Below, one piece after another: positions 1 through 4,128 of a DNA stretch of 64,000 nt (the stretch's first letter is position 1; every line of letters starts with the position of its first letter). The notes under the pieces were generated by a model. It saw only the letters and a program-made list of their open reading frames with translations. It had not been told where the DNA came from and ran no database searches. The stretch comes from Olsenella profusa DSM 13989 (GTDB taxonomy: Bacteria > Actinomycetota > Coriobacteriia > Coriobacteriales > Atopobiaceae). The stretch covers positions 1,798,001 through 1,862,000 of the forward strand of contig NZ_JAUSQK010000001.1 in assembly GCF_030811115.1 (NCBI RefSeq), read 5' to 3'. Both the position numbers and the translations under genes were made by a program.

Positions 1-549
1 ACCTTCCTCGCCATCTCCAAGCGACAGGAGCAAGAACACCACATGCAACTTTCTCGCCTTTCTTACAAGGGCCTCAATCGGACAATCTCGCTCAACTCGT
101 TCGCAATACTCTACGCCCCTGCCTGTGAACCTCATCGCGTCCTTATGTTTGATCACTCCTGCTGCCCCATTGTTCACTGCAAGCAACAAAGCAGCAGCGG
201 TGAGCAGCAGAGACCAGCTCGAGTAGTGGAGCCTGACGATGACGTCCAGGTGTTCGTATGCCTCTGCTGAATCAGCCTTGAATTCCTCAAGGAGTTTGTC
301 GCGTATCTCCTGGACTGTTTTCTCTGGCAGCACTGCTTCGTAGCCCAGCAATTCCTCGATGCTGATGGAGAAAAGCGCGGACAGCTTTGGCAGCAACGTG
401 ATATCGGGAAGACTGATGCCGAGTTCCCACTTGGAAACGGCGGCCTTCGACACCCCGACAAAGTTCGCGACATCCCCTTGGGTCATGCTGCGTCTTTTTC
501 TCTCCCGAGCAATAACCGCCCCGATGTTGATGGAATCGAAAGCAGACAT
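1..549 (-). CDS. XRE-family HTH regulator (partial, runs off window start)
   Basis: Reading leftward from an ATG at 549, the frame is open to base 1, so 183 residues are visible and the C-terminus lies outside. A strong ribosome site (GGAGGG) precedes the ATG. Residues ~10-63 form a Cro/CI-type helix-turn-helix, with the recognition segment VGVSKAAVSKWELGISLPDI followed by an LLPKLSALFSISIEELLGYE-type cap. The remaining ~120 residues are helical, with an Ala/Leu-rich stretch (LLLTAAALLLA), and resemble no family I can name. It probably binds DNA as a local repressor; target and effector are unknown. It is transcribed away from the other genes of the window. Confidence 0.8.
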   Translation of the reverse strand, partial: MSAFDSINIGAVIARERKRRSMTQGDVANFVGVSKAAVSKWELGISLPDITLLPKLSALFSISIEELLGYEAVLPEKTVQEIRDKLLEEFKADSAEAYEHLDVIVRLHYSSWSLLLTAAALLLAVNNGAAGVIKHKDAMRFTGRGVEYCERVERDCPIEALVRKARKLHVVFLLLSLGDGEEG

Positions 550-947
550 ATGCTCCCTCCGGTTTCTATCAGGTGTGGCGAGCGGAGCCTTCGCTGTGAT
601 TCGACCGTGGGTCCACTCAGAAGGGCTGTGAACTCATTAAGAAATTATGAATCGCCAAGGAGTCAAAGACGATGGAAGCTGTGTCGAATGTCATCCAGAA
701 AAATCAACCGCGGGGAAGGGATGAAGCTCGGCCTCATCTATGCCACATCGTCAGTGCTCAAGGATCTCACTGTCAACCATTGCGATGAGGCACACGATGC
801 CTGTGCGCCGCACTTGCCCACGGATATGAAGACGAGCGAACAAGGCCAGTAACTCACATGTAGAGCCCAAAGGGCGGTTGGAGCAATCCTCGGTTTCACC
901 TGAGGTGTGATAGCTGGTTTACTAGGTGGACCAGCTCGCATGACCAC
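550..947. other. intergenic region, no convincing gene
   Basis: About 400 bases between the XRE gene and the methyltransferase end. The open frames here lack a recognisable protein pattern and a ribosome site. A small perfect inverted repeat, AGCTGGT (912-918) / ACCAGCT (930-936), lies just beyond the methyltransferase stop. It overlaps an alternative pairing AGGTGG (924-929) / CCACCT (944-949). Neither is followed by a T-run, so a terminator role is only possible. Confidence 0.4.
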
Positions 948-1598
948 CTAAATGGCCCTGGGCTTGCGCATCACGGCATGAAGATGCCAGAGCCTGTCGT
1001 TTCGGAAGACTTCAAGGGTGAGCCTGGACTCCTGGCACATCCGCTCGATTTCCTTTCTGGAATAGATGCGCACGTCGCCCTTGTGGAGGAGGTTTGCCAG
1101 CGGCAGCTCAACGTTATTGATGAACCAGACCATAAGGGCGTTGCCGGTGCTGTCGTTGAGCACAAGCTTGCCTCCGGGCCTCAGAATGTGAGACGCGCTG
1201 TCAAAAAAGTCCTGGGGATTGGGGTAGTGGTGGAAGCTCATGGAGCAGATTGCGACGTCAAACGATGAGTCCTCGAAGGGGATGTCCTCGCAGTCGCCTA
1301 CCACGAACCTGACGTTGGCGAGCGCCTTTGCCCGGGCGACCTCGATCATCTTGGGCGTGAGGCCGAGGCCGGTGTAGCGGCGATCCGGCCATCTCTTGTG
1401 CAGGAGCGAGATCATGGGACCCGTCCCGCACCCGCAGTCGAGAAGGTCCTCGAAGGGTTCCCGCTCAAGCTCTTTCAGGATGCTGGGGTACTCGGCACGG
1501 CACGGCTCGTAGATGCCGGCATCGTCCGTCTCGTCCGTCTCGGCCGCCTTCGTGAACTCCTCTATGGAGAGGCGCTTGTACTGCTCTGCCGTCCTCAT
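948..1598 (-). CDS. class I SAM-dependent methyltransferase
   Basis: 216 residues from the ATG at 1598, which has GGGAG eight bases upstream; an in-frame upstream start is less well placed. The Rossmann motif I is LLDCGCGTGPMISLL (residues ~52-66). It is followed by an acidic loop after strand 2, the motif VGDCEDIPFEDSSFDVAIC, and the MSFHHYPNPQDFF / LRPGGKLVLND stretch typical of UbiE/Methyltransf_11 enzymes. The substrate cannot be told from sequence; small-molecule and quinone-like substrates are common in this family. It stands alone between two regulators, so context gives no pathway. Soluble, cytoplasmic. Confidence 0.85.
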   Translation of the reverse strand: MRTAEQYKRLSIEEFTKAAETDETDDAGIYEPCRAEYPSILKELEREPFEDLLDCGCGTGPMISLLHKRWPDRRYTGLGLTPKMIEVARAKALANVRFVVGDCEDIPFEDSSFDVAICSMSFHHYPNPQDFFDSASHILRPGGKLVLNDSTGNALMVWFINNVELPLANLLHKGDVRIYSRKEIERMCQESRLTLEVFRNDRLWHLHAVMRKPRAI

Positions 1599-1804
1599 GC
1601 GACACACTCCCATCAAAGTAAGCCTAAACTTGTCTTTATAGGGAAACTATAGACTGATATGCGTGACCTTCTGGAGCCACGTGCCATCCCACTGGCAATG
1701 TACGGCAGAGACACAGAGCCAACAGGTCTTTTGTGCGGGCAAACGAAGCGTCGATTGACCGTTGCGGACTTCTGGGGCATGTTTGTCCCTGAAAGGAGGC
1801 GCAC

Positions 1805-2371
1805 ATGGATGCACACCGGTTTGGCAACTTCATGGCGCGACGGCGCAAGCAGCAGGGGACGACCCAGGCCTTACTTGCAGACAGGATTTGCGTGACCGAC
1901 AAGGCGGTCAGCCGCTGAGAGCAGGGCGTGGGTTTTCCTGATATCGGGACCATCGAACCGCTGGCGGATGCCTTGGACGTGTCCGTCATCGAGCTGATGA
2001 GGGCGGAGAGGACGGGGGAAGTCATGTCGACGCATGAGGCGGATGAGGCTTGCAAGGGTGCCCTTGACCTCACCGAGGCACAGGTAGAGAGGGAAATTAG
2101 GGACGTCGTGATGCTCATTGCCGTATTGGCGGTAGTCACGATGCTGGTGGAGATGCTGTCCTCCCTCCGGTGGAACGGGTCGGAGCTCATGATGACCATG
2201 AGCGTCCCCCTGACGTATCCACTCATACCGGGGGCACTGGTCGCCTATGCAATCTGGCGCGGGGTGCACGGAAAGACCTGGAGGCAGGCGGCATCGGTCG
2301 ACATCGTGCTGCTCGTGGCGCCCGCGTTACTCCTCCTGGGAGCGTTCCTGCTCGGTGCCTATACCTCCTGA
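1805..2371 (+). pseudogene. XRE regulator with C-terminal membrane segments, broken by TGA in the HTH
   Basis: A canonical ribosome site (GAAAGGAGG, 1791-1799) precedes the ATG at 1805. The frame encodes a Cro/CI HTH but hits TGA at 1916-1918, codon 38, exactly where the family has Trp (the expected SRWE reads SR-stop-E). Beyond the stop the same frame continues to 2371 with the rest of the HTH (GVGFPDIGTIEPLADALDVS), a linker and about three hydrophobic segments (MLIAVLAVVTMLVEML; PLTYPLIPGALVAYAI; VDIVLLVAPALLLLGAFLL). A single TGG-to-TGA change explains this. No frameshift is needed, so the inactivation looks recent. If intact it would be a 188-residue DNA-binding protein anchored in the membrane. 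Confidence 0.8.
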
Positions 2372-2383
2372 CCGGAACCATGC

Positions 2384-2439
2384 GGTGCGCGCTCCCGCCC
2401 GCATCGGTACCGTGTTCCGTGCTCGTCTCGCGCCCGTTC
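2384..2439. repeat. direct repeat copy 1 (56 bp)
   Basis: This copy matches 4075-4128 in direct orientation. Allowing one 2-base gap, 50 of 54 positions are identical (shared core TACCGTGTTCCGT). It sits just after the broken XRE gene and before the ATPase gene. The two copies bracket the ATPase and its iteron array. Confidence 0.8.
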
Positions 2440-2626
2440 GGTGTTGCATGACGCGAAGCGTGCCTTTCATTGTACGTTGTCTTTGCCTGTCGCTTTCTTC
2501 CTCTCGAATCTCCTATGTCGATTGGATCACATCGGAGGCATGGGTCCCGCCAACAAGACATGTCGGACCTCTCAACTGTCGTCCCACTTGACTGTGTCCT
2601 GACATGGTGTGTCTGTACCCAAGTTC

Positions 2627-2703
2627 CTCGAAAGACCAAAGCGAATTGACTCGAAAATTGCTGTTGGATTTGCTCGAAAATAGTAGACACAATACCTCGA
2701 AAA
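2627..2703. repeat. four iterons CTCGAAA(A/G), exact 23-bp period
   Basis: The octamer CTCGAAA(A/G) begins at 2627, 2650, 2673 and 2696, exactly 23 bases apart each time. The spacers are unrelated and AT-richer than the window average. The array ends about 70 bases before the ATPase ATG at 2772. Since 23 is not a multiple of three, the periodicity is not from coding. It looks like a tandem operator on one face of the helix (about two turns). Confidence 0.7.
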
Positions 2704-2771
2704 CCATCGATACTCGGTCACATCCTGCTATCATCGGGCATACCAGGATGGTCTTCCGAGGGGTAGGTTCC

Positions 2772-4058
2772 ATGCGGTACTCGAAGCTCAAGCCAGAAAC
2801 GTACATTTCTCGCAGTGTCGATTCACAGCTGCGGGCCCTCTTGGGTGCCTTTGGCGGCATAGAGCTCTGCGGACCCCGCTGGTCGGGGAAGTCTTGGACG
2901 GCCCAGGCGTTTGGTGAGAGCGTGACGCGTGTGGATGAGTCCAGGGAAATCTATGCGGATGACCCACAGCTCTCACTTGTCGGAGATGCTCCTCATGTTA
3001 TCGACGAATGGCAGGATGTGCCTGCCATATGGAATGTCGTGCGACACAGGATTGATGACAGTGCGAACAGATCCGGGCAGTTCATCTTGACGGGCTCATC
3101 GACTCCTCCCGAGGGCGAGAAGCGGCATAGTGGCGCCGGGCGTATCGCGCGACTGCGCATGCATACCATGAGTCTTGCGGAGACGGGTGACTCTACGGGG
3201 GCGGTGTCCCTCTCGGGACTCTTTGAGGATCGCTTTGAGCCGATGCAGTCCCATCTCGGTCTTGCAGACCTGGCCGACATCGTATGCCGTGGTGGATGGC
3301 CGGCTCTTCAGACGGGCGAGTCGACGAACCCCAAGGCCGTTGCAGCGGGCTATCTCGACGCACTGTTCGAGGTGAGTATGCCCCATGCAGGGAAAAGCCC
3401 CGTCCTGTCCCGTCGCATTGCCACGTCCCTCGCGCGTAACGTGGCGACAAGTGCGACGATGGGCACCATGAGAAGCGACATCGCTGCCCTTGGCGACGTC
3501 GCCCCAGCCGATGCGACCATATCCTCGTATCTCGAGGAATTCAGGCGCAACTACTTCATCGAGGAGCTGCCGGGTTGGGACGCCCCAATCAGATCGAGGT
3601 CAAGGCTCCGCACAAAGCCGAAGCGCTATCTCTGCGATACCTCCCTCGTGGCTAGTCTGCTCGGTGTCGACCCCTCACGCTTGCTCAAAGACGGTCAGCT
3701 GCTTGGTCTTTTGATCGAATCGCTCTGCATTCACGATTTGTTCGTCTACGTCTCTGCCCTGCCCGAGTCGTACGGGAGCTCCCTGCGGTATTACGCGGAT
3801 GCCGACGGCCTTGAGGTTGATGCCATCATCGAGCTAGCTGACGGTCGGTGGGCTGCCGTCGAGATCAAGACGGGGGAGTCGAAGGTCGAGAAAGCAGCTG
3901 CCAATCTCATGCGGCTTGCTGCGAAGGTGGCCGCAAATCCCGCGGCGCGCAACCCCAAGCCCAGCTTCATGGCCGTGCTGTTGGGAAAGGGCACGATGGC
4001 GCGCAGGCGAGGCTCGGATGGGGTGTACGTCATCCCGATTGACACCTTGGGGGCGTAG
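2772..4058 (+). CDS. AAA-type ATP-binding protein with DUF4143-like C-terminus
   Basis: 428 residues from the ATG at 2772 (GAGGGG upstream); the first residues MRYSKLKPETYISRSVDSQL are typical for this family. Walker A is GPRWSGKSW (~residues 34-42), Walker B-like HVIDEWQD (~77-84), and the sensor strand FILTGSSTPP follows. The C-terminal half has the DUF4143/restriction-endonuclease-like fold pattern: LCDTSLVASLLG, then LEVDAIIELADGRWAAVEIK, where the D...E-x-K residues recall a PD-(D/E)xK core. Members are widespread, often horizontally moved, and of unknown cellular role. The gene is alone, with iterons upstream and direct repeats on both sides. Confidence 0.85.
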   Translation: MRYSKLKPETYISRSVDSQLRALLGAFGGIELCGPRWSGKSWTAQAFGESVTRVDESREIYADDPQLSLVGDAPHVIDEWQDVPAIWNVVRHRIDDSANRSGQFILTGSSTPPEGEKRHSGAGRIARLRMHTMSLAETGDSTGAVSLSGLFEDRFEPMQSHLGLADLADIVCRGGWPALQTGESTNPKAVAAGYLDALFEVSMPHAGKSPVLSRRIATSLARNVATSATMGTMRSDIAALGDVAPADATISSYLEEFRRNYFIEELPGWDAPIRSRSRLRTKPKRYLCDTSLVASLLGVDPSRLLKDGQLLGLLIESLCIHDLFVYVSALPESYGSSLRYYADADGLEVDAIIELADGRWAAVEIKTGESKVEKAAANLMRLAAKVAANPAARNPKPSFMAVLLGKGTMARRRGSDGVYVIPIDTLGA

Positions 4059-4074
4059 GACGTACAAGTGTGAT

Positions 4075-4128
4075 GGTGCGCTCACGCCCGCATCAGTACC
4101 GTGTTCCGTACTCGTCCCGCGCCCGTTC
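4075..4128. repeat. direct repeat copy 2 (54 bp)
   Basis: Second copy of the repeat at 2384-2439. It starts 16 bases after the ATPase stop codon and ends where the isochorismatase-like pseudogene ends. No transposase is present between the copies. Confidence 0.8.

Follow-up and report, generated by a model that had tools for sequence, protein, structure and literature searches.

A 23-bp direct-repeat array as a candidate autoregulatory operator of DUF4143 ATPase genes

Introduction

Which protein reads four evenly spaced copies of the box CTCGAAA(A/G) upstream of an ATPase gene in Olsenella profusa DSM 13989, and to what effect? The boxes lie within a stretch of 64,000 nucleotides (contig NZ_JAUSQK010000001.1, positions 1,798,001 to 1,862,000 of the forward strand), here called the window, and the gene behind them encodes a protein with AAA_14 and DUF4143 domains. 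Our preferred answer, to which we assign a probability of roughly 0.7, is that the array is the operator of this gene and is bound cooperatively by the ATPase itself. The elements concerned are the following, in window coordinates.

2627..2649, plus strand: array unit 1, box CTCGAAAG at 2627-2634
2650..2672, plus strand: array unit 2, box CTCGAAAA at 2650-2657
2673..2695, plus strand: array unit 3, box CTCGAAAA at 2673-2680
2696..2718, plus strand: array unit 4, which overlaps a -35-like hexamer; box CTCGAAAA at 2696-2703
2707..2734, plus strand: promoter-like match by consensus alone (TCGATA, 16 bp, TATCAT, TG before the -10-like hexamer; 9/12)
2772..4058, plus strand: AAA_14 + DUF4143 ATPase gene of the PDC-S01 family, 428 aa, ATG at 2772
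2820..3161, plus strand: AAA+ part, residues 17-130; G34, G39, K40, D78, E79 and R124 invariant in 25/25 sequences
3399..3632, plus strand: predicted winged helix, residues ~210-287, from the structural model; proposed reader of the array
3639..4043, plus strand: nuclease-like part, residues 290-424; E316, D350 and E364 invariant and K366 nearly so in 25 sequences

Results

The four boxes start at 2627, 2650, 2673 and 2696, an exact 23-bp period, and in this the original prediction was right. The arrangement is unique in the window: one fourfold exact 7-mer with a constant period of 12-60 bp was found there and none in 20 dinucleotide shuffles, while the three threefold repeats of this kind overlap one another and all fall in the array, compared with one in total across the 20 shuffles. 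The octamer by itself is common enough, with five window matches against a mean of 2.24 in 100 shuffles, 7 of which contained at least five. Across the whole 2.6-Mb genome, the two-box pattern TCGAAA-N17-TCGAAA has three overlapping matches, in the array only. Two details of the original prediction have to be revised. The spacers are not wholly unrelated, as the box is followed by A in 96% of 67 units, drawn from 19 actinobacterial loci like that of the window (all picked for a CTCGAAA box), and the C preceding the box and several spacer positions carry ~0.5-0.7 bit each in the same units; and the spacing, put at about two helical turns, is closer to 2.2. The promoter-like match is the only one in 2372-2800, and from its consensus transcription would start near 2741, which places the fourth box at about -42 and the -35-like hexamer inside unit 4.

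The longest reading frame of the ATPase gene opens at ATG 2604 and would span the array, but ATG 2772 is the preferred start because the starts of orthologues lie downstream of the array and align with ATG 2772 (by eye). The protein matches the PADLOC candidate defence family PDC-S01 (E 1.6e-54), and the PDC-S01, DUF4143 and AAA_14 profiles are matched by all 25 proteins of a set made up of the window protein and 24 array-linked relatives. The 25 sequences retain the residues of the ATPase motifs and a set resembling PD-(D/E)XK, from which activity is predicted; the available text of PMC12988326 gives PDC-S01 the same PD-(D/E)XK label. The original prediction named no known function for the family, but through its PDC-S01 match the family has a proposed role as a candidate defence system, for which no mechanism was found in the open-access literature. 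A sequence search of the Protein Data Bank returned magnesium chelatase as its best match (E 0.042), and a search of NCBIfam gave no match.

An AlphaFold2 model built from the 25 sequences (mean predicted local distance difference test score, pLDDT, 89.7; predicted template modelling score, pTM, 0.90) places the winged helix at ~210-287 and the nuclease-like part at 290-424, behind an AAA+ part and helices; the domain names were assigned from its secondary structure and Pfam. Among solved structures it most resembles the archaeal ATPases 2qen (PAB2304; Z 15.4, 252 residues aligned, root-mean-square deviation 4.4) and 2fna (SSO1545; Z 13.1, 251 aligned, 4.6), followed by the NLR and CED-4 ATPases; these matches reach Z 11-15 compared with Z 9-10 for other AAA+ families, and Foldseek matches include Orc1/Cdc6 and RuvB. 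The likeness to 2qen and 2fna extends over ~residues 2-298 at sequence identities of 17% and 14%, respectively, and leaves unaligned the nuclease-like part, which is hardly covered by the solved-fold matches considered.

Conservation of the array was assessed by its spacing, independently of the word, in 109 homologues chosen by protein similarity alone, window gene included. This sample comprises 30 loci given and 80 fetched from a longer match list, from which L142 was dropped (gene start deleted); the matches left out were partial, weaker or not listed. Within 300 bp upstream, an exact 7-mer is repeated at exactly 23 bp in 88 of the 109 homologues vs. 2 of 218 within-gene windows, and at 22 bp in 14 of 109 vs. 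6 of 218. When all distances of 12-59 bp were counted in 112 upstreams (the 109 and three own-genome loci, one being the window gene again; nine own-genome DUF4143 loci, L035 to L043, were dropped for lack of a usable start), 23 bp was found in 89 and its double, 46 bp, in 65, with all other distances at 0-14. By a three-period score, 89 of the 109 homologues likewise exceed the 99% level of their shuffles at 23 bp, and 10 do so at 22 bp only. The 88 arrays contain three (34 loci), four (33), two (13) or five to seven copies (8), and their last box precedes the start codon by a median of ~74 bp (range 10 to 248), so that the array lies at the promoter of its own gene, as an operator should, both in the window, where it overlaps the promoter-like match, and in the homologues.

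Both the spacing of the array and its position upstream of the gene have been retained, whereas the word has not. Repeated words are diverse, including CTCGAAAA, CTCTAAAA, GGGTGGAAAATC, TGGCGTAAAA, CGCCAAACCCGAAA, TCGCAATCTGCTGGT and others, and a 22-bp group (L175, L182, L188, L190, L191, L192) carries GCGGAAAGTGACAACGAGAATC or a similar word. The original prediction proposed looking for both octamer and spacing upstream of orthologues; the spacing is there, at exactly 23 bp in 88/109, and is not the peculiarity of one genome that would have spoken against the idea, while the octamer as such gives way to clade-specific words. A word was common (similarity >0.5) to 99 of 134 cross-genome pairs with protein identity of at least 0.65, a set in which some pairs are near-identical proteins, to 39 of 3153 pairs with identity <0.5, and to no pair of paralogues within one genome (0 of 43; median identity 0.43). 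The repeated word tracks protein lineage, not host.

The wider family was represented by 103 DUF4143 genes from archaea and further bacterial phyla (12 of 115 loci were dropped, having no ORF, or open reading frame, found or a short upstream); part of these genomes were reached via loci carrying the CTCGAAA array, and some of the 103 genes are closely related to each other. Exact 7-mers recurred at 32 bp in 25, at 33 bp in 22 and at 23 bp in 6 genes, where 3.2, 4.3 and 1.6 were expected from control windows in the same loci; any of 22, 23, 32 or 33 bp was found in 49 of 103 genes vs. 22 of 192 such windows. Tested at 0.05 against each region's own shuffles, 53 of the 103 have significant repeats, with periods of 32 bp (20), 33 bp (19), 23 bp (6), 31 bp (3) and five singles; chance would let about 5 of 103 pass, scattered across 34 periods. 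Two of the six 23-bp genes (L255, L273) repeat the genes of L045 and L048, and four (L256, L274, L275, L284) are new.

These genes were placed in a FastTree phylogeny of 133 proteins, midpoint-rooted and with its leaf order read by eye. Thirty leaves had been marked as 23-bp in advance: 12 protein-selected ones and 18 named loci chosen by word, the latter being 24 full-length named proteins minus six identical to proteins of the protein-selected set. Together with the six 23-bp genes these 30 form one leaf run, interrupted solely by L324 (no significant repeat), and the 32-33-bp genes fall outside it. Spacing, i.e., 23 vs. 32-33 bp, tracks protein clade. As 23 and 33 bp are about one helical turn apart, the two spacings would fit an oligomer that tolerates an extra turn but not half a turn. 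By eye, L291, L292, L294 and L295, from the family of the Methanosarcina spelaei genome, display palindrome-like boxes, e.g., TTGTCGTTTATACTCGACAA, ~32 bp apart and near a TATA-like stretch.

Searches by the word itself recovered the two-box pattern in 15 of 140 genomes of the taxonomic family (reversed control, 5 of 140) and the triple pattern, with up to two mismatches, in 6 of 396 genomes of the phylum (reversed pattern, 2). In the genome collection the triple pattern, whose 21 fixed bases correspond to an estimated ~0.1 chance match per 257 billion bases, occurred in 83 stretches, given as 80 loci. A full-length DUF4143 frame follows downstream on the same strand in 24 of the 80, and a cut or broken one in 4 more (L051, L066, L069, L108). 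CTCGAAA-array loci with the gene span several actinobacterial orders and occur as well in a genome of the Lachnospiraceae (L045) and one of Candidatus Symbiothrix (L048); their proteins are as little as 24% identical to the window protein. Among viral_contigs, two stretches contain the triple array, with no DUF4143 among their listed ORFs by eye (for L250, ORFs touching 1-4000 only), and a protein search there, whose reach is close relatives only, found no relative of the ATPase. In a genome of the same species (L012 / L142), window positions 2679-3281 are gone, a loss that runs from the end of box 3 through unit 4 and the promoter into the start of the gene; L010, L016, L069 and L108 retain boxes beside internally deleted or fragmentary genes. 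The gene appears to be lost in place at times, as expected of a costly accessory gene.

The part of the protein that reads the word was sought by a co-variation scan over 89 loci, reduced to 78 by dropping those >95% identical. Once overall identity is regressed out, the local similarity of the proteins follows that of the words most closely in the recognition-helix region, at residues 241-256. The scan reaches 0.172, and none of 200 label permutations exceeded 0.153. For close pairs that differ in word, identity averages 0.43 at 238-262 vs. 0.64 overall (n=74); for close pairs that share a word the values are 0.70 and 0.77 (n=56). The scan lends moderate support to the recognition-helix region as the word reader, and the modelled winged helix is the part that we infer to read the array.

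Discussion

Among the possibilities raised by the original prediction, autoregulation is the reading that the sequences support best, and it would be the simplest account because a gene-specific array sits at the gene's own promoter. The ATPase would bind the array via its predicted winged helix, a single protomer or dimer occupying each repeat; the constant spacing would align the protomers and bring neighbouring ATPase parts into contact, and the outcome would be autoregulation. Given the position of box 4 and the overlap of unit 4 with the -35-like hexamer, the simplest effect of a bound protein would be to obstruct RNA polymerase. Repression over activation is nevertheless a guess with a slight lean, as the weak -35 and extended -10 allow for activation; a TTGACA-17-TTATAT promoter seen by eye within the array of L004 would favour repression at that locus. 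A nuclease-armed ATPase might in this way be kept low until it is titrated or released.

Several observations weigh against this interpretation. Paralogues diverge as much as unrelated pairs do, and the contrast with close homologues therefore opposes a common host factor but is no measure of specificity; some of the word sharing among close homologues may simply reflect common ancestry of the upstream DNA. By the three-period score the repeat is missing at both 22 and 23 bp in 10 of the 109 homologues, and 50 of the 103 wider genes lack a significant one. Of the bootstrap peaks of the co-variation scan, 36% fall in 236-262, 17% in 262-284 and 47% elsewhere; restricted to pairs of >50% identity, the top windows start at 363 and 190, and residues that separate CTCGAAA from other words give no signal in the recognition helix. 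Arrays without the gene also exist, since 52 of the 80 triple-pattern loci have no DUF4143 gene in the retrieved stretch, although many of these are other kinds of repeats by eye (palindromic, low-complexity), and in some the array is near the end of the stretch and the gene possibly beyond it. No neighbouring gene was common to 12 orphan arrays inspected by eye.

Of the alternatives, the one that survives best, though unlikely, is that the array is not chiefly an operator but a working part of defence, e.g., an address where the ATPase-nuclease assembles or waits, or a self-site from which it is released on infection. In its fullest and equally unlikely form, the ATPase-nuclease would be assembled in a silent state on repeats spaced (23 or 32-33 bp) to match its oligomer and be released when infection removes or competes for the array. 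The possibly STAND-like fold (2qen and 2fna, then NLR and CED-4) suggests switch-like oligomerization, the spacing depends on protein clade, and PDC-S01 is a candidate defence family. On the other side, the array overlaps the only promoter-like match, the homologues keep it a median of ~74 bp from the start codon, and simple autoregulation suffices; according to the available text of PMC12988326, validation is pending for most PDCs of the core defensome.

Somewhat less probable still is control of the gene by a host regulator that binds the array, such as a neighbouring XRE protein, which had been named as a potential binder. Direct-repeat operators are common among host regulators, and an XRE-type gene lies nearby (1-549, minus strand). 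A host regulator predicts the same word among paralogues of one genome, and a shared host factor is unlikely because not one of the 43 paralogue pairs has a word in common, unlike most close homologues across genomes. The word changes with the ATPase, the two-box word occurs at no other place in the genome, and CTCGAAA arrays precede such genes in organisms as far apart as Actinobacteria, a Lachnospiraceae and a Candidatus Symbiothrix.

We consider it improbable that the array is the end of a mobile element or a replication-like set of iterons, the latter raised in the original prediction. Direct repeats of 51 bp, 92% alike and with no other copy in the genome, bracket array and gene at 2389-2439 and 4078-4128; homology with Olsenella sp. 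Marseille-P4559 (L097) extends from 699 to 4128, stopping exactly at the end of the second copy; and some loci hold an array beside a deleted or fragmentary gene. The block in common with L097, however, begins far upstream, at 699, and the array is thus not its border. A Pfam scan of 6 neighbouring proteins, which do not represent every ORF of the region, detected no replication gene, and the trait follows the promoter of one gene family. Chance or a functionless shared remnant is hardly credible even though the octamer by itself is not rare, since the shuffle test and the 23-bp homologue count already contradict it and a spacing kept while the word changes is unexpected from shared descent alone.

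Autoregulation by the ATPase would have parallels in two kinds of known systems. Iterons at plasmid origins are direct repeats about two helical turns apart, and the winged-helix protein that binds them is often a repressor of its own gene. The present array resembles them in its repeats and its proposed winged-helix reader; it differs in being chromosomal, in belonging to a DUF4143 protein instead of a Rep protein, and in a spacing of 23 or 32-33 bp depending on clade. Restriction controller proteins, BrxR and CapW are autoregulated and hold defence genes down through operators at promoters, and according to the available text of PMC12255303, RptR likewise acts through an operator at the promoter of defence genes. 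In contrast to all of these, the effector-like ATPase itself is the proposed reader here, with no separate small regulator, and the word varies among homologues.

The available text of PMC12988326 ranks PDC-S01, with which the window protein shares its AAA_14 + DUF4143 architecture, fourth in frequency among prokaryotic defences (9986 copies in Archaea, 29494 in Bacteria). Descriptions of the family, as far as their available text goes, cover the protein and its spread and mention no repeat array or operator. In the text of the 2026 Nucleic Acids Research paper 'promoter', 'operator' and 'autoregulat' are absent, and four occurrences of 'repeat' are unrelated. The open-access literature, in which one paper names DUF4143 and three name PDC-S01, yielded no description of the array, no combination of DUF4143 with direct repeats and no PF13635; subscription journals mostly fall outside it, and an earlier description is possible. 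A gene-specific candidate binding site before many copies makes PDC-S01 assayable at once by binding, reporter and spacing-change experiments, and the natural pairs of protein and word, well over a hundred in number, could be used to learn how this protein reads DNA.

Two minor observations concern the surroundings and the paralogues. An XRE-type frame at 1805-2371 contains an in-frame TGA at 1916-1918 by eye and is probably a broken gene. Among the other DUF4143 genes of this genome, L032, L038, L040, L041 and L042 have no repeat evident upstream by eye, and L033, L035, L036, L039 and L043 carry inverted or hairpin repeats just upstream, also by eye.
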